Assembly: GCA_017452785.1 (NCBI GenBank)
Contig: JAFTLT010000009.1
Coordinates: forward strand, 164,699 to 228,698
Origin: Clostridia bacterium
GTDB lineage: Bacteria > Bacillota > Clostridia > Oscillospirales > Acutalibacteraceae
DNA: 64,000 nt
Direction of reading: 5' to 3'
The stretch's first letter is position 1. The number at the start of each line of letters is the position of its first letter. The notes under the pieces were generated by a model. The model was not told the DNA's origin. It worked only from the letters and a program-made list of their open reading frames with translations, and made no database searches. Positions 7,359-47,062 of the stretch are shown in pieces. The position numbers and the translations under genes are program-made.

Positions 7359-7377
7359 AACAGTGTTGATATTTAAT

Positions 7378-7601
7378 AAAAGCTATGACGAAAGAAACGT
7401 TCCGCTTATTTCATTGCAGAGAGAGGGGGAGGGTGTAAGCCCCTTATGAAGGACGGAAATGTGCTGCTTTCACCAGTTGCACCCGAAAGGGTCTGCCGTA
7501 AATCTGCGTTAAGGATATTGAGTGGTGCTTTATGCACAATTCGGGTGGTACCGTGGACTTGTTTCACCCCGAGGTGTGTATGATGCGCTTTATTTTTTTG
7601 T
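7378..7601 (+). ncRNA. T-box leader, alanine specific, upstream of alaS
   Basis: The leader carries the T-box core GGGTGGTACCGTGG at 7543-7556, which pairs with the free CCA end of uncharged tRNA, and an AGAGAG bulge segment near 7418. The likely specifier codon is GCT (Ala) at 7463-7465, five bases before the start of the closing strand, the same register seen in the two other T-boxes here and in glyQS leaders. AAAGC at 7378-7382 pairs with GCTTT just after it. A T-rich tract lies at 7590-7599. Read-through into alaS is expected when tRNA-Ala is uncharged. The terminator hairpin is less clear than in the other two. Confidence 0.85.
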
Positions 7602-34817: not shown

Positions 34818-34846
34818 TTGACTTTTAAGCATTAAAATGCTATTAT
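34818..34846 (+). promoter_or_regulatory. Promoter of the leucine T-box operon
   Basis: TTGACT (34818-34823), 17-base spacer, TATTAT (34841-34846). Transcription starts near 34853. Confidence 0.75.
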
Positions 34847-34854
34847 CTTTGCAA

Positions 34855-35127
34855 TATCACAAATGCGTTGAAGAAATTATGAATTTTCATCTTATGATTT
34901 CAGAGAGTCGGTGGTTGGTGCAAACCGATACATAGTGTCAATTCAGTCTCGTTTCTGAGCAGAACTGCTGAAGACTTTTTGTTGCGTAGGTAGTTCCGGA
35001 TGCCCCGTTATCATGGCTAAGAGCTTGTTTGAGCTTAAAAGAGTGACTGTTTTACAGTAATCAAGGTGGTACCGCGAATAGTATTATTCGTCCTTGAGGT
35101 TACAGGTGTAACTTCGAGGGCTTTTTT
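34855..35127 (+). ncRNA. T-box leader, predicted leucine specific (CTC)
   Basis: The leader has the T-box core AAGGTGGTACCGCG at 35063-35076, an AGAGAG-like bulge (CAGAGAG) followed by GGTGGTTGGTGCAAACC, and a clear terminator. The specifier codon is read as CTC (34948-34950), which lies five bases before TGAGC, the register known from glyQS leaders. CTC matches tRNA-Leu. When tRNA-Leu is uncharged the antiterminator should form and the genes downstream should be transcribed. Confidence 0.85.
35092..35127 (+). terminator. Attenuator terminator of the leucine T-box
   Basis: CCTTGAGGTTACA (35092-35104) pairs with TGTAACTTCGAGG (35107-35119) over 13 positions with G-T pairs, and six T follow. 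It overlaps the antiterminator region as expected for a T-box. Confidence 0.85.
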
Positions 35128-35190
35128 ATTGTCAGTGCTACCTTAATTCTCGATGCAAAAGTGATAAATTGTTTAAAAGGAGCAAACATA

Positions 35191-36603
35191 ATGCAAAAAT
35201 TAACAGTTTCCGACATCACCCTTAAGCAGTCTGCAAAATCAGCAGACTACACTCTGAGCTTCAGAGAAAAAATTGAAATTGCAAAATTACTTAACAAAAT
35301 TCATGTCAGTGTTATCGAGCTGCCTGCAATTGTGAAAGAGAAGACAGATATGCTTCTCATCAAATCTGTTGCTTCATGCGTTCATCACAGCATAGTTGCC
35401 GTACCTGTTAATCTTCAGGAGGGTGACGTTGAGCGTGTTGCTGAGGCACTTAAGACAGCAGACAAGCCAAGAATTCAGGTTCAGGTTCCAACCTCAACAG
35501 TGCAGATGGAATATATCTGCGGCAAAAAGCCCAACGCTGTTCTTGAAATGATTAAAGACCTCACTGTGAGAGCAAAAGCACTTTGCAGCGATGTTGAATT
35601 TATTGCTGACGACGCAACAAGAAGTGACATTGATTTCCTTTATAAGGCAGTTGAATGTGCAATTGAAAACGGTGCCACAACAGTTACTGTCTGCGACACA
35701 GCAGGCACAATGTTCCCTGACGAAATTTCTGATTTTGTTTCCGATCTTATAAAGAATGTTCCTGCTTGCGAAAGCATTGAAGTAGGTGTTCAGTGCAGCA
35801 ATGCAATTGAAATGGCTTGCGCTGGCTCAATTGCTGCTCTTAAAGCAGGTGCAACAGAGGTTAAGGTTTCATCTGTTGCTTCAAAAGATACTGCATCAAT
35901 GGAGTCAATCTGTCAGATTATCCGCACACACGGCGACAGCTTCGGTTTCACAACAGGTGTGAGAACTACTGAATTCCACAAGGCTGCAAAGCAGATTGAC
36001 TGGATTGTTAACGCAAAACGCAGCAAAAATTCACCCTTTGACCATGCTTCTGCAGAGTCAGGCGAAGACTTTGTTCTCAGTGAGCATGATGATATAACTG
36101 AAGTAAGCAAGGCTATTGCAATGCTCGGCTACGATTTGTCACAGGAAGATATTTCAAATGTTTATAACGAATTCAAGCGTATCAGCACAAGAAAGACAGT
36201 AACCGCAAAGGAGCTCGATGTAATTGTTGCTTCCGCAGCTCTTCAGGTACCCATGACTTATGTGCTTGAAAGCTATGTTATCAACAGCGGTAACATTATC
36301 AGCGCAACAGCAAACATTACTGTTAAAAAGAACGGTGAAACAATCAGAGCTCTTGCAAACGGTGATGGACCTATTGATGCTGCTTTCCTTGCAGTTGAAC
36401 AGATTATCGGTCACCGTTATGAACTTGACGATTTCCAGATTCAGGCAGTTACTGAAGGTCAGGAGGCAATGGGCTCAGCTATCGTTAAGCTTCGCTCAAA
36501 CGGCAAGCTCTATTCAGGCAAGGGTCTTTCAACCGATATTATCGGCGCCAGCATAAGAGCTTATATTAACGCTATCAACAAGATAGTTTATGAGGAGGTA
36601 TAA
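35191..36603 (+). CDS. Non-canonical LeuA-like protein with leucine-binding regulatory domain, catalytic residues lost
   Basis: The 470-residue protein has the fold pattern of 2-isopropylmalate synthase. The catalytic barrel (about 1-290) keeps DDATRSD and CDTAGTMFPDE, but the usual TLRDGEQ reads TLKQSAK (K12, Q13) and the metal-binding HxHND reads Q201-C202-S203-N204. Both His ligands and the key Arg-Asp are gone, so synthase activity is unlikely. The C-terminal LeuA-dimer domain (about 355-468) is well kept (GDGPIDAAF, GLSTDIIGASIRAY) and would be expected to bind leucine. It sits behind a Leu T-box as first gene of its operon. ATG 35191 has AAGGAG upstream. I infer a regulatory or scaffold role. 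Confidence 0.75.
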   Translation: MQKLTVSDITLKQSAKSADYTLSFREKIEIAKLLNKIHVSVIELPAIVKEKTDMLLIKSVASCVHHSIVAVPVNLQEGDVERVAEALKTADKPRIQVQVPTSTVQMEYICGKKPNAVLEMIKDLTVRAKALCSDVEFIADDATRSDIDFLYKAVECAIENGATTVTVCDTAGTMFPDEISDFVSDLIKNVPACESIEVGVQCSNAIEMACAGSIAALKAGATEVKVSSVASKDTASMESICQIIRTHGDSFGFTTGVRTTEFHKAAKQIDWIVNAKRSKNSPFDHASAESGEDFVLSEHDDITEVSKAIAMLGYDLSQEDISNVYNEFKRISTRKTVTAKELDVIVASAALQVPMTYVLESYVINSGNIISATANITVKKNGETIRALANGDGPIDAAFLAVEQIIGHRYELDDFQIQAVTEGQEAMGSAIVKLRSNGKLYSGKGLSTDIIGASIRAYINAINKIVYEEV

Positions 36604-36608
36604 TCAAT

Positions 36609-39116
36609 ATGATGAAGCTTTCTTTTTCAGTCAAGGGCTGGGAGGATTATTCATGGCAGGATTTAATGAATCTTGCTAACGAAAACAGCATCAAAGGCAT
36701 TGATCTTTGCCCTGACAGTAATGCTAATCTTTTTGAAAAAAATGCAGAATTTGATAAATATAACAGCGGTGCAACAATCCGTTCAATGAAAGACAAGGGT
36801 CTTGCAGTGCCTTGTGTATGCTACAGCACTGATATTGCAGATGATAATGTCAGTGAAACTGCCGATAAAGTCAAGGAGTATATTGACTTCGCCTCAGGTA
36901 TAAGAGTACCCTATATTGCTCTTTATGCTGCAAAGGAAAATGAAAATGCTAAGGCTAATGTTATTGCATTTATTAAGGAAATCAATGACTATGCCGTCAG
37001 CAAGGATGTAACAGTTCTGTTTAAAACTGAGGGACTTTTTGCTGATACAAGCGTTCTTCGTGATGTTATCATGGAGTTTTCCTGTGACACAATCGGTGCT
37101 ATGTGGGATATGTATAACACATATTTTGTCAGCGGTGAGGACCCTGAAACAACTATCACAAATCTTGGTGCATACATTAAGCACGTGCACATCAAAGACT
37201 TTGTTGACGGTGAATATTGCCTTTTAGGTGAAGGTGAAATTCCCACAGAAATTATGGTTAATGCACTTTCCTCAATCAACTATAGAGGCTATGTAGCTTT
37301 TGATTGGGACATAGACTGGATGAGTGACCTTGACGAGCTTGATGTAATTGTTGCTCATTTCAGTGAGTATATGAAAAAATTCAAGTCAACCTCAAGAAAG
37401 AAAAATCATCTTTATTATAATAACCGCCATACTGGCAAGTTCGTTTGGAAAAAGGAAGCACTTATTGAAAAGACATTCTCGCAGGTGCTTGATAAGATGG
37501 TTGAAGAGTTCCCTGATCAGTACGCTTTTAAGTATACAACTCTTGATTATACCAGAACCTACGCCGAATTCAGAGACGATGTTGACGAGTGCTGCAGAGC
37601 GTTCCTTGCTATGGGCGTTAAACCCGGCAGCCATGTTGCGGTTTGGGCAACAAACATTCCTCAGTGGTATATTGCTTTCTGGGCTGCTACAAAAATCGGT
37701 GCTGTTCTCGTAACTGTTAACACTGCATATAAAATCCGTGAAATCGAGTACCTTTTAAAGCAGTCAGATACACATACACTTATTCTCATTGAAGGCTGGC
37801 GTGACTCACACTATGCAAACATTATCGGTGAGCTTTGTCCTGAACTCGAAACTACAAAAGCAGGCGAGCCTCTTCACTGCAAGAGACTTCCATTCCTTCG
37901 CAATGTTATTACAGTCGGCTTCAGAAAGAAAGGCTGTCTTACATGGGAAGAAGCTATGGAAAGAAGTGAAAATGTACCTGTAGAAGAAGTATACAGAATT
38001 GCAGCAAATGTTAACCCCAACGATGTTTGTAATATGCAGTATACCTCAGGCACAACAGGCTTCCCCAAGGGCGTTATGCTCACACACTATAACGTAGTTA
38101 ACAACGGTAAGTGCATCGGTGACAGAATGGATCTTTCAACTGCAGACCGTATGATGATTCAGGTGCCTATGTTCCACTGCTTCGGTATGGTTCTTTCAAT
38201 GACAGCATCAATGACTCACGGTGTTACAATATGTCCTATTCCTTATTTCTCACCGAAGCCTTCACTCGCCTGCATCAATCAGGAAAAAATTACCTGTTTC
38301 CACGGTGTGCCTACAATGTTTATCGCTCTGCTTGAGCATCCTGACTTTGAAAAGACCGATTTCTCATATATGAGAACAGGTATTATGGCAGGCTCACCTT
38401 GTCCCATCGCAACAATGAAAGACGTTGTTGAAAAGATGCACATGAACGAGATTACTATAGTTTACGGTCAGACTGAGGCTTCACCGGGCTGCACAATGAG
38501 CTCAACTGATGATCCTCTTGAGGTTCGTGTTGCCACTGTCGGCAGAGCTCTTCCTGAAATTGAATGCAAGATTGTTGACCCTGAAACAGGGGAGGACTTA
38601 CCTGTTGGTCAGATAGGCGAATTTGTTGCAAGAGGCTATAACATAATGAAGGGCTATTACAAAATGCCCAAGGCAACCTCAAGCGCAATTGACAAAGACG
38701 GCTGGCTTCACACCGGTGACCTTGCCTGCAAGACAGAAGAAGGTAACTATAAAATCACAGGCAGACTTAAGGATATGATTATCCGTGGCGGTGAAAACAT
38801 TTATCCCAAGGAAATTGAAGAGTTTATTTATACTCATCCGAAGGTCAGCGACGTTCAGGTTATCGGTGTGCCTGATGAGCAGTACGGTGAAGAAATTGCA
38901 GCTTGCATCATTCTCAAAGAAGGCGAAACAATGACCGAGGATAAAATGAAGCAGTTTGTCCGTGATCATATGGCAAAGCATAAGGTGCCAAGATATATTG
39001 ACTTTGTTGATTCATTCCCCATGAACGCTGCGGGTAAAATTCTTAAATATAAGATGCGTGAGGATGCAATTGAAAAGTACGGACTTCAGAAGGCAAACTC
39101 TGTTGAAACTGCATAA
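36609..39116 (+). CDS. TIM-barrel (sugar isomerase-like) fused to acyl-CoA synthetase
   Basis: An 835-residue two-domain protein. Residues 1-260 form a xylose-isomerase/AP endonuclease 2-like barrel (MWDMYNTYF, HVHIKDFVDG, YVAFDWDIDW). Residues 275-830 form an AMP-forming acyl-CoA synthetase: the P-loop YTSGTTGFPKG near 477, YGQTEASPG, GWLHTGDLA, KDMIIRGGENIYPKE and the Lys-containing end NAAGKILKYK. The second part activates a fatty acid as acyl-AMP and then acyl-CoA. The first domain is not a usual partner; its role is unknown. GAGGAGG lies 10 bases before ATG 36609; a second ATG follows directly. It starts 5 bases after the LeuA-like gene, so one transcript under Leu T-box control is expected. 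Confidence 0.85.
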   Translation: MMKLSFSVKGWEDYSWQDLMNLANENSIKGIDLCPDSNANLFEKNAEFDKYNSGATIRSMKDKGLAVPCVCYSTDIADDNVSETADKVKEYIDFASGIRVPYIALYAAKENENAKANVIAFIKEINDYAVSKDVTVLFKTEGLFADTSVLRDVIMEFSCDTIGAMWDMYNTYFVSGEDPETTITNLGAYIKHVHIKDFVDGEYCLLGEGEIPTEIMVNALSSINYRGYVAFDWDIDWMSDLDELDVIVAHFSEYMKKFKSTSRKKNHLYYNNRHTGKFVWKKEALIEKTFSQVLDKMVEEFPDQYAFKYTTLDYTRTYAEFRDDVDECCRAFLAMGVKPGSHVAVWATNIPQWYIAFWAATKIGAVLVTVNTAYKIREIEYLLKQSDTHTLILIEGWRDSHYANIIGELCPELETTKAGEPLHCKRLPFLRNVITVGFRKKGCLTWEEAMERSENVPVEEVYRIAANVNPNDVCNMQYTSGTTGFPKGVMLTHYNVVNNGKCIGDRMDLSTADRMMIQVPMFHCFGMVLSMTASMTHGVTICPIPYFSPKPSLACINQEKITCFHGVPTMFIALLEHPDFEKTDFSYMRTGIMAGSPCPIATMKDVVEKMHMNEITIVYGQTEASPGCTMSSTDDPLEVRVATVGRALPEIECKIVDPETGEDLPVGQIGEFVARGYNIMKGYYKMPKATSSAIDKDGWLHTGDLACKTEEGNYKITGRLKDMIIRGGENIYPKEIEEFIYTHPKVSDVQVIGVPDEQYGEEIAACIILKEGETMTEDKMKQFVRDHMAKHKVPRYIDFVDSFPMNAAGKILKYKMREDAIEKYGLQKANSVETA

Positions 39117-39137
39117 AAATAAGAAGGCGAAATATTA

Positions 39138-39953
39138 ATGAACTATCCGATAATTGACTGTCACTGTCATGTTTATCCCGATAAAATTGCTGCAAGAGCA
39201 GTTGAGGGAATTGGCTCTTTTTATAGCCTTGATATGCACTATGACGGCAAATATTCAACTCTTGTTGACAGCGGCAAAAGGAATGGAATCAGGCATTTTG
39301 TGATTTTTTCCGTTGCAACAACACCTCATCAGGTTCGTTCAATCAATAATTTTATTGCTGAGACCGTAAATGGCAGCTCCGGCTCCATGACGGGTCTCGG
39401 CACCCTTCATCCTGACAGCGAAAGCATTGAAGAAGATATTGCTGAAATTAAGGCTCTTGGTCTTAAAGGCATCAAGATGCATCCTGATTTTCAGAAATTC
39501 AGAATTGATGACGACAAATGCCGCAAAATATATGCGCTTTGTCAGGGTACTCTGCCGATATTGCTGCACACAGGCGACAGTCGGTATGATTATTCCAATC
39601 CTGACCGTATGAAGCGTATTCTTGATGATTATCCCAATTTAACGGTTATCGGTGCTCATTTCGGCGGTTGGTCCTGCTGGAGAGAGGCTGCCGAGAAGCT
39701 AAGCGGATACAGCAACTTTTATGTTGATTGCTCATCGTCATTTGATTGGCTGTCACCTGAGGAAAGTGCTGAGCTTACAAGAAAATACGGTGCCGACAGG
39801 GTGCTGTTCGGTTCTGATTTTCCCATGTGGAGCCATGAGCTTGAAATCAAAAGATTTTTTGATATGAACCTGACAGACGAAGAAAACAGAAAAATCCTTT
39901 ATGAAAATGCAATTAAGCTGTTTTCTTTGGATAAAAACACAATAGCGCTTTAA
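39138..39953 (+). CDS. Amidohydrolase family 2 protein
   Basis: A 271-residue TIM-barrel metal hydrolase of the amidohydrolase 2 (ACMSD-like) type. Visible are the first metal motif DCHCHVYP, KGIKMHPDFQKF, LLHTGDSRYD, VIGAHFGG and the last Asp in VLFGSDFPMW. Members act as decarboxylases or hydrolases; no substrate can be read. It is 21 bases after the fusion gene and closes the Leu T-box operon. A role in making or freeing a branched-chain acid is possible but speculative. Confidence 0.82.
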   Translation: MNYPIIDCHCHVYPDKIAARAVEGIGSFYSLDMHYDGKYSTLVDSGKRNGIRHFVIFSVATTPHQVRSINNFIAETVNGSSGSMTGLGTLHPDSESIEEDIAEIKALGLKGIKMHPDFQKFRIDDDKCRKIYALCQGTLPILLHTGDSRYDYSNPDRMKRILDDYPNLTVIGAHFGGWSCWREAAEKLSGYSNFYVDCSSSFDWLSPEESAELTRKYGADRVLFGSDFPMWSHELEIKRFFDMNLTDEENRKILYENAIKLFSLDKNTIAL

Positions 39954-40009
39954 ATGATTAAAGAGTTATTGTAAATTATGACAAATTATAAAAATTAGCA
40001 TTAAAACTA

Positions 40010-40038
40010 TTGACAGCTTGGTTTTAAAGTGCTAAAAT
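40010..40038 (+). promoter_or_regulatory. Promoter of the isoleucine T-box operon
   Basis: TTGACA (40010-40015), 17-base spacer, TAAAAT (40033-40038). The region 39954-40009 before it holds nothing visible. Confidence 0.8.
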
Positions 40039-40059
40039 AAGTTAAAATTTCATAGAAAA

Positions 40060-40327
40060 GCTATGACGAAGACGGACGAAGGAACGTTTTTACAGAGAGT
40101 TGACGATGGTGGAAAGTCAGCATTACAGCACTTCAGGGTCCTATCACTTCCGAGCTGAGGGTCCGAAAGTTCTTTTGAAATCAGTAGACACCCTTCGTGA
40201 TTGCTGCGTTAATGCATAGAGCTTGTTGGAGCTTGAAGGTGGCGATTTATATCGCAATTTGAGTGGTACCGCGGGTATTATTTAGTTAGTTACTCGTCTC
40301 AAAGGTTTTCTTTGAGGCGAGATTTTT
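40060..40327 (+). ncRNA. T-box leader, predicted isoleucine specific (ATC)
   Basis: It carries AGCTATGACGAAGA at the start (as in many T-boxes), an AGAGAG bulge, and the T-box core TGAGTGGTACCGCGG at 40260-40274. The specifier ATC at 40143-40145 lies five bases before CGAGC, the same spacing as in the Leu T-box, and AGCT at its two ends can pair. ATC matches tRNA-Ile. It should allow expression of the downstream synthetase when isoleucine is short. Confidence 0.83.
40293..40327 (+). terminator. Attenuator terminator of the isoleucine T-box
   Basis: A 12-position stem, CTCGTCTCAAAG (40293-40304) with CTTTGAGGCGAG (40310-40321), with one imperfect pair, and a T-run after it. Confidence 0.87.
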
Positions 40328-40365
40328 AATTTTAAAAAAATTATTTTTACCGGAGGTAAAAAGTT

Positions 40366-42627
40366 ATGGAAATGAATAATCAACTTATGGAAGTTGCATC
40401 ACGTATTAAAGAGATGCGTGAAGTATGCGGCTTCAGTGAAGAAGAAATGGCTGTTAAGACAGACATCACTCTCGAACAGTATAAGGCTTATGAAGCAGGC
40501 ACCGTGGATTTTCCCTTCTCATTTATTCACAAGTGCGCTAAAGCTTTCGGCATAGGCAAAACTGATCTTCTTGAGGGTCAGAGCAGCAACCTTTCCTCTT
40601 ATACTGTTACAAGAAAAGGGCAGGGCAAGATAACATCAAAGGAAGACGGCATTGAGATTAATAACCTTGCACCTCTTTTCAGAAATAAGCTTGCTGAGCC
40701 TTATCTTGCAAAATATGAATATAAAGAGGAACTTCAGAATAAGCCGATTCATACAATTACACACTCCGGTCAGGAATTTGACCTTGTGCTTTCAGGCAAG
40801 CTTAAGGTTCGTGTCGGCAACCATACAGAGGTTCTCGGTGAAGGTGACAGCATTTATTATAAGAGCTCATCACCTCACGGCATGATAGCTGTTGACGGTC
40901 AGGACTGCACATTCCTTGCAGTTGTTATCACAGATGATGAAGGCTCAACTGAAAAGGAAGTTCAGGAAACATTTGTCACTGCAAAAACACAGCACAGACT
41001 TGAAGCAATGAACTTTATCGTAACAGAGGAAGATGAAAAGGGTCTGCTTAAAAAGCTCGACTATAAAAATGAAGATAAGTTTAATTTTGCTTTTGACATT
41101 GTTGATGCTGTTGCTGACAAGTACCCCGACAAGCTGGCAATGCTTCATATTGCTTCTGACAAAACCGAGAGAAGATTTACATATAAGGATATGAAAAAAG
41201 AGTCTGCACGTGCAGCTAACTATTTCCTCAGTCTCGGCATCAAAAAGGGAGACAGAGTAATGCTTGTGCTCAAGCGTCACTATCAGTTCTGGATTACGGC
41301 TCTTGCTCTTCATAAGATCGGTGCTGTTATTATCCCTGCAACAAATCAGCTTGTCGAGCATGACTTTGACTACCGCTTCAAGGCTGCAGGTGTTACTTCA
41401 ATTCTTTGCACAGCTGACGGCAATGTGGCAGACCATGTTGACAAGGCAGCTGCAAATTATGGCGGACTCAACCACAAAATCATTGTTGGTGCTGACAGAG
41501 AAGGATGGCACAACTTTGATGCAGAATATAGGCGTTTCAGAAGCATCTATAATCGCACAGAAGAAACTGCTTGCGGTGATGACACAATGCTTATGTTCTT
41601 CACTTCAGGCACAACAGGTTACCCAAAAATTGCAGCTCACTCATATAAGTACGCATTGGGTCACTTCATCACTGCTAAATATTGGCATACAGTTCAGCCC
41701 AGCGACCTTCACCTTACTATTTCCGACACAGGTTGGGGCAAGGCTATGTGGGGCAAATTCTACGGTCAGTGGATGTGCGAGGGTGCAGTTTTCACCTATG
41801 ACTTTGACAGATTTGACGCTTCAGATATACTTCCCATGTTTGCGAAGTATCATATCACAACCTTCTGCGCACCTCCCACAATGTACAGAATGCTTATAAA
41901 GGAAGACCTTTCAAAGTTCGACCTTTCATCAATCAGATATGCAACAACAGCAGGTGAGGCTCTTAATCCTGAGGTGTTCTATCAGTTTGAAAAGGCAACA
42001 GGCATTGTAATCATGGAAGGCTTCGGTCAGACCGAGACTACACTTACAATCGGTAACCTTATCGGTACCACACCAAAGCCCGGTGCAATGGGTAAGCCTG
42101 TTCCCTGCTATGACATAGCTATCGTTGACCCTGACGGCAATGAATGTGCTGTTGGTGAAACAGGTGAAATTGTTGTTCGTACAGACAAGAAGATTCCCTG
42201 CGGTCTGTTTAAGGGCTATTACGGCGATGAGGAAAGAACCAAGGAAGTATGGTATGACGGTATGTATCACACCGGTGACACTGCTTGGTGCGATGAAGAC
42301 GGTTATTATTGGTACGTAAGCCGAATTGACGACGTTATCAAGTCATCAGGCTACCGAATCGGACCCTTTGAAATTGAAAATGTTATTATGGAGCTTCCAT
42401 ATGTTCTTGAGTGCGGAGTTTCAGCTGCACCCGATGAAATAAGAGGTCAGGTCGTTAAGGCAAGCATCGTTCTTACTAAGGGTACCGAGCCCACGGAAGA
42501 GCTCAAAAAGGAAATTCAGACCTATGTTAAGAAAAACACCGCTCCCTATAAATATCCGAGAATAGTTGTGTTCCGTGATGAGCTTCCCAAGACAATCAGC
42601 GGCAAAATTCAGAGAAATAAACTTTAA
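40366..42627 (+). CDS. XRE helix-turn-helix / cupin / AMP-forming acyl-CoA synthetase fusion
   Basis: A 753-residue three-part protein. Residues 8-64 are an XRE-type DNA-binding domain, 105-185 a cupin (THSGQEFDLVLSGKL and a GEGDSIYYKSSSPHG end), and 225-750 an acyl-CoA synthetase of the acetyl/medium-chain type. The last has FTSGTTGYPK near 412, a GFGQTET block, GYRIGPFEIENV and the terminal SGKIQRNK lysine. XRE-cupin pairs are common as regulators; fusion to a ligase is unusual. It could sense and activate a short branched acid in one chain. GGAGG precedes ATG 40366. It is under the Ile T-box. Confidence 0.88.
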   Translation: MEMNNQLMEVASRIKEMREVCGFSEEEMAVKTDITLEQYKAYEAGTVDFPFSFIHKCAKAFGIGKTDLLEGQSSNLSSYTVTRKGQGKITSKEDGIEINNLAPLFRNKLAEPYLAKYEYKEELQNKPIHTITHSGQEFDLVLSGKLKVRVGNHTEVLGEGDSIYYKSSSPHGMIAVDGQDCTFLAVVITDDEGSTEKEVQETFVTAKTQHRLEAMNFIVTEEDEKGLLKKLDYKNEDKFNFAFDIVDAVADKYPDKLAMLHIASDKTERRFTYKDMKKESARAANYFLSLGIKKGDRVMLVLKRHYQFWITALALHKIGAVIIPATNQLVEHDFDYRFKAAGVTSILCTADGNVADHVDKAAANYGGLNHKIIVGADREGWHNFDAEYRRFRSIYNRTEETACGDDTMLMFFTSGTTGYPKIAAHSYKYALGHFITAKYWHTVQPSDLHLTISDTGWGKAMWGKFYGQWMCEGAVFTYDFDRFDASDILPMFAKYHITTFCAPPTMYRMLIKEDLSKFDLSSIRYATTAGEALNPEVFYQFEKATGIVIMEGFGQTETTLTIGNLIGTTPKPGAMGKPVPCYDIAIVDPDGNECAVGETGEIVVRTDKKIPCGLFKGYYGDEERTKEVWYDGMYHTGDTAWCDEDGYYWYVSRIDDVIKSSGYRIGPFEIENVIMELPYVLECGVSAAPDEIRGQVVKASIVLTKGTEPTEELKKEIQTYVKKNTAPYKYPRIVVFRDELPKTISGKIQRNKL

Positions 42628-42682
42628 TATAGCTTATCGCAAAATATTTTCGGATATTTTGCGATAAATGTTTCATAAATTC

Positions 42683-42711
42683 TTGAAAAAATATTAAAAG
42701 TGTCATATAAT
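42683..42711 (+). promoter_or_regulatory. Promoter inside the intergenic gap before the MinD-like gene
   Basis: TTGAAA (42683-42688), 17-base spacer, TATAAT (42706-42711). The -10 element touches the GGAGG ribosome site, so a transcript from here would begin after that site. Confidence 0.7.
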
Positions 42712-42727
42712 GGAGGATATGAGTTTT

Positions 42728-43387
42728 ATGAAAAAGCGTATCACTCTCTTTGCAGGTCATTACGGCAGCGGCAAAACTAACATAGCTGTCAACTATGCGT
42801 TTCACTTAAAGGATATGTCTTTGCCGGTGGTCATTGCCGATCTTGACATAGTCAACCCTTATTTCCGCACAAAAGACAGTGACAAAGAGCTGAAAGAAAA
42901 AGGAATAGAGCTGCTTTGCTCGGAGTTTGCAGGCACTAATCTTGATATTCCCGCACTTCCTCAGACTATGTACAGGGCAGTGCAGGATAAAAGCACCTAT
43001 GCTGTTATGGATATAGGAGGAGACGATGTCGGCTCGGTAGCTCTCGGAAGATTTGCTCCTTTTATCAAGGAAGAAAACAACTATGAGATGATATTTGTTG
43101 CTAATTTCTTCCGTCCTTTAACGAGATCAGCTGAGGATGCACTTGAGATTATGCGTGAAATCGAAGCAGCATCTCATCTCAAATTCACGGCAATTGCCAA
43201 TAACTCAAATCTTGGTGAAGAAACAACTGCCGAAGATGTTCTTTCAACAAAGGATGAAATTGAAAAGCTTAGTGTGCTCAGTAGCTTGCCTGTTATAATG
43301 ACAACGGCAAAAAATGAAGTATGTGAAGCGTTAGAGGGTAAAGTCGATAATTTATTCCCTCTGACATTACAAAGCAAAATTATTTAA
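42728..43387 (+). CDS. MinD/ParA-like P-loop ATPase in the VOR operon
   Basis: A 219-residue protein with a P-loop GHYGSGKTN near the start, VVIADLDIVNPYFR as the next nucleotide-binding block, and AVMDIGGDDVG. It belongs to the CobQ/CobB/MinD/ParA nucleotide-binding group. Its position directly ahead of the four VOR subunits suggests a role in assembly or iron-sulfur cluster supply for that enzyme, which is inference. GGAGG (42712-42716) favours ATG 42728. An ATG at 42719 is too close to GGAGG but could serve a leaderless message. Confidence 0.75.
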   Translation: MKKRITLFAGHYGSGKTNIAVNYAFHLKDMSLPVVIADLDIVNPYFRTKDSDKELKEKGIELLCSEFAGTNLDIPALPQTMYRAVQDKSTYAVMDIGGDDVGSVALGRFAPFIKEENNYEMIFVANFFRPLTRSAEDALEIMREIEAASHLKFTAIANNSNLGEETTAEDVLSTKDEIEKLSVLSSLPVIMTTAKNEVCEALEGKVDNLFPLTLQSKII

Positions 43388-43402
43388 TCGGAGGTATAAA
43401 GA

Positions 43403-43609
43403 ATGCCTAAAGTAACATTCAGAACAGATTTATGTAAAGGTTGCGGTCTTTGCGTTGAAGCATGTCCTAAAAAGATTCTTGTAATTGCTAAGGATAAGAT
43501 TAACGCTAAAGGTCATTCACCTGCCGAAATGACAGATGAAAGCAAATGCATCGGTTGTGCTTTTTGCGCAACAATGTGTCCCGACTGTATAATCAAGGTT
43601 GAAAAGTGA
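43403..43609 (+). CDS. vorD: VOR delta subunit, 4Fe-4S ferredoxin
   Basis: A 68-residue ferredoxin with two clusters: CKGCGLCVEACPKK and CIGCAFCATMCPD. In 2-oxoacid:ferredoxin oxidoreductases this subunit passes electrons between the catalytic core and free ferredoxin. It starts 15 bases after the ATPase gene, with GGAGG before it, and is followed by the alpha, beta and gamma subunits. Confidence 0.9.
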   Translation: MPKVTFRTDLCKGCGLCVEACPKKILVIAKDKINAKGHSPAEMTDESKCIGCAFCATMCPDCIIKVEK

Positions 43610-43619
43610 GGTAAAGAAA

Positions 43620-44684
43620 ATGGCTGAAAAAGTACTTATGAAGGGTAATGAAGCTATTGCTGAAGCAGCTATCCTTGCAGGCTGCCGTCACTACTTCGGT
43701 TACCCCATCACTCCTCAGACTGAAATTGCCGCATATATGGCTAAGAAGATGCCTAAAATCGGCGGCTGCTTCCTTCAGGCTGAAAGTGAAGTTGCAGCAA
43801 TCAATATGGTTTACGGTGTTGCAGGCACCGGCAAAAGAGTTATGACATCATCATCAAGCCCCGGAATTTCTCTTAAATCAGAGGGTCTTTCCTATATGGC
43901 AGGCAGTGACCTTCCTGCACTCGTTGTCAATGTTCAGCGTGGCGGCCCCGGTCTGGGCGGCATCCAGCCCTCACAGTCAGACTATTTTCAGGCTACCAAG
44001 GGCGGTGGACACGGCGACTTCAAGATGATAGTTCTTGCACCCTCATCAGTTCAGGAAATGGCTTCACTTACAGTTAAAGGCTTCGATCTTGCTGATAAAT
44101 ACAGAATGACATCAATGATTCTTGCTGACGGCACAATGGGTCAGATGATGGAGCCTGTTTCACTTGAAGAAGTAGAGGTTGCTGACTATGACAAGTCATG
44201 GGCAGTAACAGGCACAAAGTGTGAAAGAAAGCATAACATTATCAATTCTCTTTCACTTGTACCTGAAGAACTCGAAAAGCTCAACTTTGAGAGATATGAA
44301 AAGTACAAGACAATTGAAGAAAACGAAGTTATGTATGAAGAATATATGATGGATGATGCTGAAATCTGTGTCAGTGCATTCGGCATTGCAGCACGTGTTG
44401 CAAAAAATGCAATTGCTATGGCAAGAGCTGAAGGCATCAAGGTCGGTATGATTAGACCCATCACACTCTGGCCCTTCCCCGTTAAGGCGTTCAAGGCAGC
44501 CGCTGAGAAGGTTAACAGCTTTATCAGCGTTGAACTTTCAATGGGTCAGATGATTGATGACATTAAGGCATCAACAGAATACACAAAGCCTGTTACTCTT
44601 TGCAATAGAGCAGGCGGTATGATTCCTTCACCCGAGCAGGTGTTGGAAGCAATTAAAAAGGCTAATGAAGGAGGTAACAAATAA
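43620..44684 (+). CDS. vorB: 2-oxoacid:ferredoxin oxidoreductase alpha subunit (branched-chain type)
   Basis: The 354-residue subunit has the GNEAIAEAAILAGCRHYFGYPITPQTEI start, then an ESEVAAIN block and VQRGGPGLGG, which are typical of VorB/KorA proteins. With the beta subunit it splits or forms 2-oxoacids with CoA and ferredoxin. A branched-chain specificity (2-oxoisovalerate and relatives) is favoured by the neighbouring ilvE and the Leu/Ile T-boxes; 2-oxoglutarate cannot be excluded by sequence alone. ATG 43620 has GAGGTAAAG upstream. The stop overlaps the next start (TAATG). Confidence 0.85.
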   Translation: MAEKVLMKGNEAIAEAAILAGCRHYFGYPITPQTEIAAYMAKKMPKIGGCFLQAESEVAAINMVYGVAGTGKRVMTSSSSPGISLKSEGLSYMAGSDLPALVVNVQRGGPGLGGIQPSQSDYFQATKGGGHGDFKMIVLAPSSVQEMASLTVKGFDLADKYRMTSMILADGTMGQMMEPVSLEEVEVADYDKSWAVTGTKCERKHNIINSLSLVPEELEKLNFERYEKYKTIEENEVMYEEYMMDDAEICVSAFGIAARVAKNAIAMARAEGIKVGMIRPITLWPFPVKAFKAAAEKVNSFISVELSMGQMIDDIKASTEYTKPVTLCNRAGGMIPSPEQVLEAIKKANEGGNK

Positions 44685-45439
44685 TGGTAGTATTCGATAA
44701 ACCTAAGTCACTTCTTGACGTGCCTCTTCACTACTGTCCCGGTTGCACACACGGTATTATTCACCGTCTTGTTGCCGAGGCAATTGACGAGCTTGGCATT
44801 GAAGGTCAGGCTATCGGTGTTGCACCCGTAGGCTGCTCCGTTCTTGCATACAATTATTTCAGCTGCGATATGGTTCAGGCTGCTCACGGCAGAGCTCCCG
44901 CAGTTGCAACAGGTCTTAAGCGTGCCGACCCGGATAACCACATTGTTTTCACATATCAGGGTGACGGCGACCTTGCTTCAATCGGTATGGCTGAGACAGT
45001 ACATGCTGCAGCAAGAAACGAAAACATAACAATTATTTTTGTTAACAACGCAATTTACGGCATGACAGGCGGTCAGATGGCTCCCACATCACTTCCCGGT
45101 CAGGTTACACAGACTTCACCCTACGGCAGAGACACTTCACACTGCGGTTTCCCCGTTAAGGTCAGTGAAATGCTTGCAACACTCGACGGTGCAGGCTATG
45201 TTGAAAGAGTTGCAGTCAACAACGTTAAGAATGTAAGAAATGCAAAGAAGGCTATTAAAAAGGCTTTCCAGAATCAGATTGATAAAAAAGGCTTCTCACT
45301 TATTGAGGTTGTTTCAACCTGTCCCACAAACTGGGGTATGACACCTATAAATGCTCTTAAGTGGCTTGAGGACAATATGCTTCCTTATTATCCCTTAGGT
45401 GTATATAAGGACAGAGACGCTCAGAAGGAGGCAGAATAA
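44684..45439 (+). CDS. vorA: 2-oxoacid:ferredoxin oxidoreductase beta subunit (TPP-binding)
   Basis: The 251-residue subunit carries the cluster-binding YCPGCTHG motif, a second Cys in PVGCSV, and the thiamine diphosphate site GDGDLASIGMAE followed by NNAIYGMTGGQ. It is the catalytic core partner of the alpha subunit. Both its ends overlap neighbouring genes by one base, consistent with one tightly coupled operon. Confidence 0.9.
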   Translation: MVVFDKPKSLLDVPLHYCPGCTHGIIHRLVAEAIDELGIEGQAIGVAPVGCSVLAYNYFSCDMVQAAHGRAPAVATGLKRADPDNHIVFTYQGDGDLASIGMAETVHAAARNENITIIFVNNAIYGMTGGQMAPTSLPGQVTQTSPYGRDTSHCGFPVKVSEMLATLDGAGYVERVAVNNVKNVRNAKKAIKKAFQNQIDKKGFSLIEVVSTCPTNWGMTPINALKWLEDNMLPYYPLGVYKDRDAQKEAE

Positions 45440-45975
45440 TGAGCACAACACAGATTTTAATTGCAGGCTTCGGCGGTCAGGGTGTACTTTTCGCAGGTAA
45501 GTTCCTTGCGTACAAAGGTCTTATTGCTGATAAGCAGGTTTCATGGCTTCCTTCCTACGGCCCTGAAATGAGAGGCGGCACAGCAAACTGCAGCGTTATC
45601 ATAAGCGACACACCTGTCGGCTCACCTATTGTCGGCACACCTGATATCCTTGTTGCCATGAACCTTCCTTCACTTAAGAAGTATGAAAACGATGTTGCTA
45701 AGGGTGGTATCATTATTGTTGACAGTGCACTCATCAGCGAAAAGGTTGAAAGAGACGATGTAACTACATACTATGTGCCTGCAACAAAAATGGCAAACGA
45801 TGAAGGCTTCGCTACTCTTGCAAATATGATTCTTATGGGCAAACTTATGAAGGTTTGCGAAGAAATCGGTTTTGACGGCACAGAGGCTGCTATAAATAAG
45901 GTTGTTCCTGCTAAAAAGGCAAATCTTATTGAAGTTAACCTTAAGGCTCTTAAAACAGGCTATGATTTTGAATAA
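45439..45975 (+). CDS. vorC: 2-oxoacid:ferredoxin oxidoreductase gamma subunit
   Basis: The 178-residue subunit begins AGFGGQGVLFAGKFLA and has YGPEMRGGTANC, the hallmark of the gamma (POR/VOR/KOR) subunit that contacts CoA. It completes a four-subunit delta-alpha-beta-gamma enzyme. ilvE follows after 19 bases. Confidence 0.9.
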   Translation: MSTTQILIAGFGGQGVLFAGKFLAYKGLIADKQVSWLPSYGPEMRGGTANCSVIISDTPVGSPIVGTPDILVAMNLPSLKKYENDVAKGGIIIVDSALISEKVERDDVTTYYVPATKMANDEGFATLANMILMGKLMKVCEEIGFDGTEAAINKVVPAKKANLIEVNLKALKTGYDFE

Positions 45976-45994
45976 TTATTAAGAGGTGTTTTAA

Positions 45995-47062
45995 ATGGAT
46001 ATTAAGATTACAAAAACAACTTCACCTAAGGCAAAACCTCAGAAGGGTGAAAAGCTTGGCTTCGGTCATATCTTTACTGACCATATGTTTATGATGAATT
46101 ACACAGAAGGTAAAGGCTGGCACGATGCAAGAATAGTTCCTTACGGCAATATTTCACTTGACCCCAGCGCAATGGTTTTCCATTACGGTCAGGAAATGTT
46201 TGAAGGTCTCAAGGCCTACAGAGGCGAAGATGACACAATTTATCTTTTCCGTCCTGATATGAACGCAAAGAGAGCCAACGCATCAAATGAAAGACTTTGC
46301 ATCCCCGAAATCCCTGAGGAAATGTTTGTTGAAGCTGTTAAGGCGGTTGTTGATGTTGACAGAGACTGGGTACCCTCAGACCCCGGCACTTCACTTTATA
46401 TCAGACCCTTTGTTATTGCAACTGACGAATTCCTTGGTGTTGCTCCCTCAAAGACATATCTCTTTATGGTTATTCTTTCACCCTCAGGCGCTTACTATGA
46501 AAGCGGTCTTGCTCCCGTTGGCATCTGGATTGAAGATGAATATGTAAGAGCTGTCAAGGGCGGTATGGGCTTTGCTAAGACAGGCGGTAACTATGCTGCT
46601 TCTCTTATTGCTCAGGTTAAGGCTCACGACAGTGGCTATTCACAGGTTCTCTGGCTTGACGGCGTTGACAGAAAGTATATCGAAGAAGTCGGCGCTATGA
46701 ACATCATGTTTAAGATCGGCGGCAAGGTTATCACACCTGCTCTCAACGGCAGCATCCTTCCCGGTATCACAAGAAACTCAATTCTTCATGTTTGCAGAGC
46801 TTGGGGCTATGAGGTTGAAGAAAGACGCATCAGTGTTGAAGAGCTTGTTGCAGCAGCTAAAGACGGCTCACTTGAAGAAGTCTGGGGCACAGGCACAGCA
46901 GCTGTTGTTTCACCCGTTGGCAGACTCCGCTATATGGATGACGTTATGACAATCGGTGACGGCGGCATCGGCGAGCTGACACAGAAGCTCTATGACGAAC
47001 TCACAGGCATTCAGTGGGGCAAGAGAGAAGATCCCTACGGCTGGAGAGTTGAAGTTAAATAA
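45995..47062 (+). CDS. ilvE: Branched-chain amino acid aminotransferase
   Basis: A 355-residue class IV PLP aminotransferase. K195 in GFAKTGGNYA is the expected PLP lysine; FEGLKAYRG and the EEVGAMNIMF and LPGITRNSIL blocks are typical of IlvE. It interconverts Val/Leu/Ile and their 2-oxoacids, the same acids handled by VOR. Placement after VOR gives a complete path from branched acyl-CoA to amino acid. Confidence 0.93.
   Translation: MDIKITKTTSPKAKPQKGEKLGFGHIFTDHMFMMNYTEGKGWHDARIVPYGNISLDPSAMVFHYGQEMFEGLKAYRGEDDTIYLFRPDMNAKRANASNERLCIPEIPEEMFVEAVKAVVDVDRDWVPSDPGTSLYIRPFVIATDEFLGVAPSKTYLFMVILSPSGAYYESGLAPVGIWIEDEYVRAVKGGMGFAKTGGNYAASLIAQVKAHDSGYSQVLWLDGVDRKYIEEVGAMNIMFKIGGKVITPALNGSILPGITRNSILHVCRAWGYEVEERRISVEELVAAAKDGSLEEVWGTGTAAVVSPVGRLRYMDDVMTIGDGGIGELTQKLYDELTGIQWGKREDPYGWRVEVK

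Follow-up and report, generated by a model that had tools for sequence, protein, structure and literature searches.

How would a member of the Clostridia make leucine (Leu), isoleucine (Ile) and valine (Val) from branched short-chain acids, and what would tell it which acid to activate? The question is raised by a locus in a 64,000-nucleotide stretch of contig JAFTLT010000009.1 from a Clostridia bacterium of the Acutalibacteraceae, the whole of this stretch being referred to as the window. The locus (window positions 34859–47062) contains two T-box leaders and ten genes, all genes on the + strand, among them two differing fusions of an AMP-forming acyl-CoA synthetase, a set of VOR genes, the branched-chain aminotransferase gene ilvE and a gene for a LeuA-like protein. 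The locus very probably serves the biosynthetic salvage of Leu, Ile and Val from branched short acids through the synthetases, VOR and IlvE, gated by T-boxes, with the LeuA-like protein as a likely leucine sensor.

The conversion itself is old knowledge. Rumen bacteria carboxylate isovalerate, 2-methylbutyrate and isobutyrate to Leu, Ile and Val (Allison and co-workers, cited in PMC7356843), and labelling work of about sixty years ago showed that rumen ruminococci require branched short-chain acids for making amino acids (also cited in PMC7356843). The route proposed here shares the acids, the products and the rumen habitat with that one, but the rumen route is known from labelling, whereas candidate genes and their control are now proposed. 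What is new is the presence of LeuA-like proteins that lack the catalytic motifs and carry the regulatory domain (36 of 36). The locus offers candidate genes together with a regulatory code that would assign a substrate to each synthetase, and it could be used as a marker to predict which uncultured gut bacteria depend on branched acids.

In the proposed mechanism, environmental 2-methylbutyrate, isobutyrate and isovalerate would be converted into CoA esters by one dedicated AMP-forming synthetase each, with an XRE-cupin fusion activating 2-methylbutyrate (Ile type) and isobutyrate (Val type) and a barrel fusion activating isovalerate. VOR, using reduced ferredoxin, would add CO2 to the acyl-CoA to yield the 2-oxoacid, which IlvE would aminate to the amino acid. 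The T-box ahead of each synthetase would read the tRNA of the end product of that synthetase, so that the route would open when the amino acid is short. Finally, the LeuA-like protein would most likely bind leucine through its conserved regulatory domain and throttle the neighbouring isovalerate synthetase.

T-Box Leaders and Their Specifiers

The features involved in control and activation are the following.

34859–35098, + strand: Leu (CUC) T-box leader (RF00230, 113.6 bits; specifier by calibrated offset)
35090–35121, + strand: terminator-like hairpin of the Leu T-box (14-pair stem and T run)
35191–36603, + strand: LeuA-like protein without catalytic motifs, with the LeuA_dimer (regulatory) domain (Pfam PF00682, PF08502; isopropylmalate synthase barrel fold)
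36609–39116, + strand: fusion of a xylose-isomerase-like barrel and an AMP-forming acyl-CoA synthetase (barrel-ACS); proposed isovalerate-CoA ligase (PF01261, PF00501, PF13193)
40054–40304, + strand: Ile (AUC) T-box leader (RF00230, 79.0 bits, E 5.6e-16, below the gathering score)
40293–40321, + strand: terminator-like hairpin of the Ile T-box (13-pair stem and T run)
40366–42627, + strand: fusion of an XRE-cupin part and an AMP-forming acyl-CoA synthetase of MbcS/Macs type; proposed 2-methylbutyrate-CoA ligase (HTH_19, Cupin_2, AMP-binding)

Both leaders match the Rfam T-box family RF00230, the first (E 2.4e-24) above its gathering score of 93 and the second below it. The second leader holds the T-box core GUGGUACCGCG, the AGAGA bulge motif, a specifier loop and a terminator, and is conserved in relatives. 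Leaders of orthologues scored 80.5–91.9 bits against the same model in six cases (loci L071, L073 and L074) and 93.4 bits in another (L084). Leaders and codons recur before orthologues in many genera, which places the two leaders beyond chance. Promoter-like sites lie upstream of both, at 34818 and 40010, where shuffled sequence gives such sites not rarely.

The specifier was read as the bases nine to seven before GAG. This calibrated offset yields CUC in the first leader (context AGU-CUC-G) and AUC in the second (context U-AUC-A), which assigns them to Leu and Ile, respectively, and bears out the CTC and ATC specifiers named in the preliminary description of this DNA. The calibrating leaders come from the window's own genome, a draft of 2.44 Mb in 74 contigs with an estimated completeness of 89.8% and contamination of 3.6%. 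It has 13 T-boxes: the two of this locus, ten before nameable genes and one before an unknown gene. The codon at this offset agrees with the known gene for seven of the ten other leaders, namely those of valS (GUA), hisS-aspS (GAC), trpS (UGG), trpB (UGG), a TrpB-like gene (UGG), thrS (ACC) and the ilvA-leu operon (AUC). Their products were named by NCBIfam, with thrS below the cut-off on a cut protein and hisS-aspS confirmed by aspS itself, and the valS and aspS leaders contain a second candidate codon in the pattern as well. The leaders that do not fit are those of pheS (UUC one base off), alaS (GCU by eye) and a trpX-like gene (product recognised by eye, specifier unreadable). A further T-box inside the window, at 7376–7574, stands before alaS (82.4 bits; contig C4:172074–172272).

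T-box control of the classical branched-chain genes in Firmicutes shares the RNA and the specifier logic with this locus (PMC2494555). In the main text of that paper, however, neither acyl-CoA nor ferredoxin occurs. No description of a T-box regulon of this kind was found among the open-licence papers listed, in agreement with the preliminary description, which knew of none.

Specifiers in Related Genomes

The sample comprised neighbourhoods from relatives' genomes and, out of named records, the 80 best of 588 candidate loci. Among these 80, the record title names a ruminant host in 43, and one record is the isolate Neglectibacter timonensis. Five named loci repeating relatives' loci, L123 (which repeats L075), L122 and LeuA matches below 38% identity were left out before counting. 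Specifiers were read by a codon-blind rule. Applied to the 10 leaders of the window's own genome whose gene is known, it was right for 6; its misses were pheS (one base off), thrS, alaS and the trpX-like gene.

Leaders could be read before 149 of the 164 full-length XRE-cupin synthetase genes; 12 had no core found and three lay at contig ends. The rule gave 103 Ile, 36 Val and 10 other codons, the last being read by eye as AUC (7) and GUA/GUC (3), so that rule and eye together give 110 Ile and 39 Val. Before the LeuA-like genes (n = 60), 55 leaders were read, with four lacking a core and one at a contig end, and all 55 are Leu (53 by the rule and two, CUC, by eye). Reading by eye concerns 12 of the 204 leaders of both gene types together. 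Split or partial XRE-cupin genes (n = 19) added seven readable leaders (four Ile, three Val), and the loci L071, L073 and L074 each have three Rfam T-boxes, read as an Ile, a Val and a Leu T-box. The search of related genomes for T-box leaders near synthetase and vor genes, suggested in the preliminary description, shows that Ile/Val and Leu specifiers recur, and none of the 149 and 55 leaders points to a different tRNA.

These leaders bear on the opposite direction of flow, in which IlvE would deaminate the amino acids, VOR would oxidise the oxoacids and the synthetases would release the acids. The reversibility of VOR and IlvE and the known part of VOR in peptide fermentation would suit breakdown. 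However, T-boxes switch genes on at amino acid shortage and AMP-forming synthetases consume ATP; moreover, the paralogues are separated by specifier and the classical pathway is mostly lost in carriers (see below). Breakdown is highly improbable on these grounds.

Two Types of XRE-Cupin Synthetase

Where the XRE-cupin synthetase is present as two full-length tandem copies and the leader of each could be read, the Ile copy comes first and the Val copy second in every one of 32 loci. The remaining tandem loci comprise six in which no leader was detected ahead of the second copy, together with two that are not fully readable. In a tree of 163 of the 164 proteins, the clade richest in Val, which was picked post hoc for that property with labels including the ten by-eye reads, contains 38 Val, no Ile and 8 unread sequences (support 1.0), and one Val sequence falls outside it. 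The Ile/Val label changes twice on the tree, compared with a mean of 34.9 and a minimum of 30 in 200 shuffles.

Three near-fixed differences distinguish the two types, one of them in the synthetase domain. Position 458 is G in 98% of the 109 Ile-type sequences and A in all 38 of the Val type, and it lies between W457 and K459, which we take to be pocket residues of Macs. A smaller pocket with A458 would fit isobutyrate. The nearest solved chain to the XRE-cupin synthetase is 3etc (618 bits). The residues W440, W457, K459, W462, C501 and G554, presumably those of the Macs acyl pocket, are invariant in 16 sequences and identical in 3etc.

The chain 3etc is Macs of the archaeon Methanosarcina acetivorans, with 2-methylbutyrate as the preferred substrate and with Trp259 and a Gly replacing the Acs Trp named as pocket residues (PMC10455477). 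Its 580 residues align to the synthetase part alone. The best NCBIfam model is that of MbcS (NF047394), at 442 bits and below the equivalog cut-off of 850. The selectivity of MbcS is for 2-methylbutyrate and isobutyrate, with isovalerate a poor substrate (PMC10026030). Given these preferences, the enzyme type behind the Ile and Val leaders is one known to act on the precursors of Ile and Val, and the type behind the Leu leader is another; a separate synthetase behind the Leu T-box fits the poor use of isovalerate by MbcS. From the leaders and this kinship we infer 2-methylbutyrate as the substrate of the Ile type and isobutyrate as that of the Val type.

MbcS of Staphylococcus aureus differs from the enzyme described here in serving lipid primers (PMC10026030) and in its model of 525 positions, which lacks the XRE-cupin part. 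That role, and the fact that no NCBIfam model matches the XRE-cupin synthetase better than MbcS, suggest another explanation, that the acyl-CoAs are mainly primers for branched membrane fatty acids, as in Staphylococcus (PMC10026030). Nevertheless, lipid synthesis would not lead one to expect control by T-boxes for the matching tRNA, nor VOR and IlvE downstream in 44 of the 83 loci with room, nor the missing IlvC and LeuC (the last two described below). Lipid priming is a very unlikely main purpose of the locus.

A LeuA-Like Protein without Catalytic Motifs

The first gene of the locus, like the amidohydrolase and the ATPase genes, was not mentioned in the preliminary description. Its product has the barrel and the LeuA_dimer domain in common with LeuA, and its best NCBIfam match to 2-isopropylmalate synthase reaches 319.9 bits, below the cut-off of 532. 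It differs from LeuA in having lost the motifs TLRDG, HxH and GERxGN, which we take to bear the catalytic and metal residues, and in occurring mostly in genomes without LeuC. All three motifs are absent from 36 of 36 LeuA-like proteins, whereas four canonical LeuA-family proteins in the same alignment have TLRDG in 3/4, HxH in 4/4 and GERxGN in 4/4. The missing motifs and the usual absence of LeuC rule out a working LeuA; judged from its sequence, the protein cannot be an ordinary isopropylmalate synthase.

Conservation is highest in the regulatory domain. The mean pairwise identity of the LeuA-like proteins is 70% in the LeuA_dimer domain, 47% in the barrel (residues 1–230) and 36% in the stretch between, while one canonical LeuA pair shows the reverse ranking (66%, 75% and 63%, respectively). 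The predicted model (mean pLDDT 81) has a pTM of 0.60, and only its barrel was used for that reason; this is an isopropylmalate synthase barrel, with a root-mean-square deviation of 1.6 from 3ewb over 272 columns. The protein is likely to be a leucine sensor or sensing subunit. It could instead be an enzyme with a new reaction, since the barrel fold is kept and some barrel residues, including D8, D141, R144 and D169, are invariant in 20 sequences. The loss of the three motifs in every LeuA-like protein and the better conservation of the regulatory domain, opposite to the canonical pair, make a new reaction doubtful, although it is the more serious of the alternatives considered. No description of a LeuA pseudoenzyme was found among the open-licence papers listed; if true, the dead LeuA would exemplify an enzyme retained on account of its sensor domain.

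In 57 of the 58 cases with room, the LeuA-like gene is directly followed by the barrel-ACS gene on the same strand, the exception being a fragment. From the leader and these neighbours we infer that the barrel-ACS fusion takes isovalerate. Its barrel domain (36609–37400) varies fast, and one clade lacks the HVHIKD and WD residues, for which reason this barrel may be non-catalytic too.

A more elaborate form of the salvage scheme can be drawn from these observations. In this three-channel system, Ile, Val and Leu T-boxes would each gate their own acid:CoA ligase, and the dead isopropylmalate synthase would be a leucine-sensing subunit that, by way of two degenerate barrels, exerts feedback on the isovalerate ligase. 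A similar part may be played by the XRE-cupin domain for the other two ligases, and many uncultured gut Clostridia would use the system in place of the classical pathway. The chances of this complete version are about even.

Losses of the Classical Pathway

In 99 genomes (the window's own and relatives), LeuC is present in 3 of the 36 with the LeuA-like gene and in 44 of the 63 without it (p 1.2e-9; p values are a guide only, because this set has genomes in common with the 225-genome set below, the species are related by descent and the drafts are incomplete). Outside the window's genus, the same set gives 0/11 versus 38/53, and 0/11 versus 34/47 when one genome per genus is taken. LeuC was counted here among the matches listed (E below 2.7e-26) with a frame of about 420–515 codons, including one partial (G052). 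The TIGR00170 cut-off is passed by 0/99 genomes, and this model is not a LeuC marker here.

A set of 225 genomes drawn evenly from the order gave a similar picture, with LeuC in 4 of the 48 carriers of the LeuA-like gene and in 130 of the 177 other genomes (p 9e-17, under the same reservation). In this set, LeuC was parted from aconitase-like proteins by TIGR02083, with 130 of the 225 genomes over the cut-off and 134 at E <1e-110, the aconitase-like matches lying at about 1e-80 to 1e-100. IlvC is present in 16 of the 82 genomes with a strong synthetase match (E 1e-230 or better; G148, G201, G229 and G240 being partial or without the N-terminal part) and in 93 of the 143 others (p 2.9e-11). Among 12 hand-picked genomes of the 80 named loci, IlvC was found in two and was missing in ten, including Neglectibacter timonensis. 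The synthetase gene of this isolate (locus L219) has a leader that was read by eye as AUC. For many relatives, these gene losses make the salvage route look like the sole one.

The VOR–IlvE Genes and the Limits of the Salvage Scheme

The genes for the later steps of the route, and the region that separates them from the synthetase, are as follows.

42634–42711, + strand: hairpin (42634–42667), then promoter-like TTGAAA-17-TATAAT (42683–42711)
42728–43387, + strand: P-loop ATPase of the VOR operon, SRP/HypB/FleN-like fold (fold search; no Pfam match)
43403–43609, + strand: ferredoxin (VOR delta-like; two Fer4 stretches)
43620–44684, + strand: VorB (alpha) (NF005507, 543 bits, above the cut-off of 399)
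44684–45439, + strand: VOR beta subunit (TPP_enzyme_C; 2-oxoacid oxidoreductase beta models all below cut-off)
45439–45975, + strand: VOR gamma subunit (POR, PF01558; NCBIfam models below cut-off)
45995–47062, + strand: branched-chain aminotransferase IlvE (NF009897, 508 bits, above the cut-off of 307)

VorB and IlvE exceed curated NCBIfam cut-offs, and no model does so for the beta and gamma subunits. Pfam and NCBIfam otherwise uphold the earlier gene list, with two differing synthetase fusions, VOR genes and ilvE on one strand. Downstream of the last synthetase, 6 kb or more of sequence is available in 83 loci. Of these, 53 carry vorB and vorA no more than 8 kb away on the same strand, and 44 have ilvE in addition. 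Between the synthetase and the next gene, 31 of the 67 loci compared leave a gap of at most 60 nt, with a promoter-like site in 4 of the 31, and VOR would mostly share the T-box transcript in these 31 given so short a gap.

Several observations weigh against the salvage scheme or parts of it. In 30 of the 83 loci with room, vorB and vorA are not both found within 8 kb on the same strand, and the gap exceeds 60 nt in 36 of the 67 loci, 22 of which have a promoter-like site. In the window itself, the hairpin and TTGAAA-17-TATAAT lie between the synthetase and the ATPase gene, and VOR-IlvE may have its own promoter. Because of this site and hairpin, T-box control of the route, as previously proposed, is clear in the window where the synthetase genes are concerned, but it is not clear for VOR-IlvE. 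A Val T-box is absent from this window (by the Rfam T-boxes of the genome). The nearest solved relatives of the barrel-ACS fusion are fatty-acyl/feruloyl, malonyl and coumarate ligases. Two strict LeuA_dimer patterns match 27/36 and 10/36 LeuA-like proteins and 2/4 canonical proteins each, which speaks neither for nor against leucine binding.

The window's own genome keeps ilvA, ilvB, ilvC, ilvD, leuA, leuB and leuC (in a draft with the contamination given above). Within its genus, there is no mutual exclusion, with IlvC in 16 of 29 synthetase carriers and 4 of 6 others (p 0.68), and the Fisher tests used throughout take no account of descent. The preliminary proposal of synthesis from branched acids is well supported by the conserved specifiers, the kinship with MbcS and Macs and the IlvC and LeuC losses (by comparison only), but the retained classical genes speak against it in this genome. 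Since these genes are still present, the salvage route would be an addition in the window's organism.

Other Genes and Minor Observations

The Leu T-box operon includes one more gene, present in many but not all relatives.

39138–39953, + strand: amidohydrolase (Amidohydro_2; PF04909)

The P-loop ATPase may act in cofactor insertion or electron activation. Its gene also stands before ferredoxin and VOR genes in operons without a T-box core found (L124, L125 and L127–L137). Second VOR operons of other families (L126, L127, L128 and L130) have a split XRE-cupin gene and a synthetase gene behind VOR, also with no T-box core found. Finally, same-score matches on the contig pairs C40/C69 and C24/C62 of the window's genome suggest duplicated stretches in the draft.

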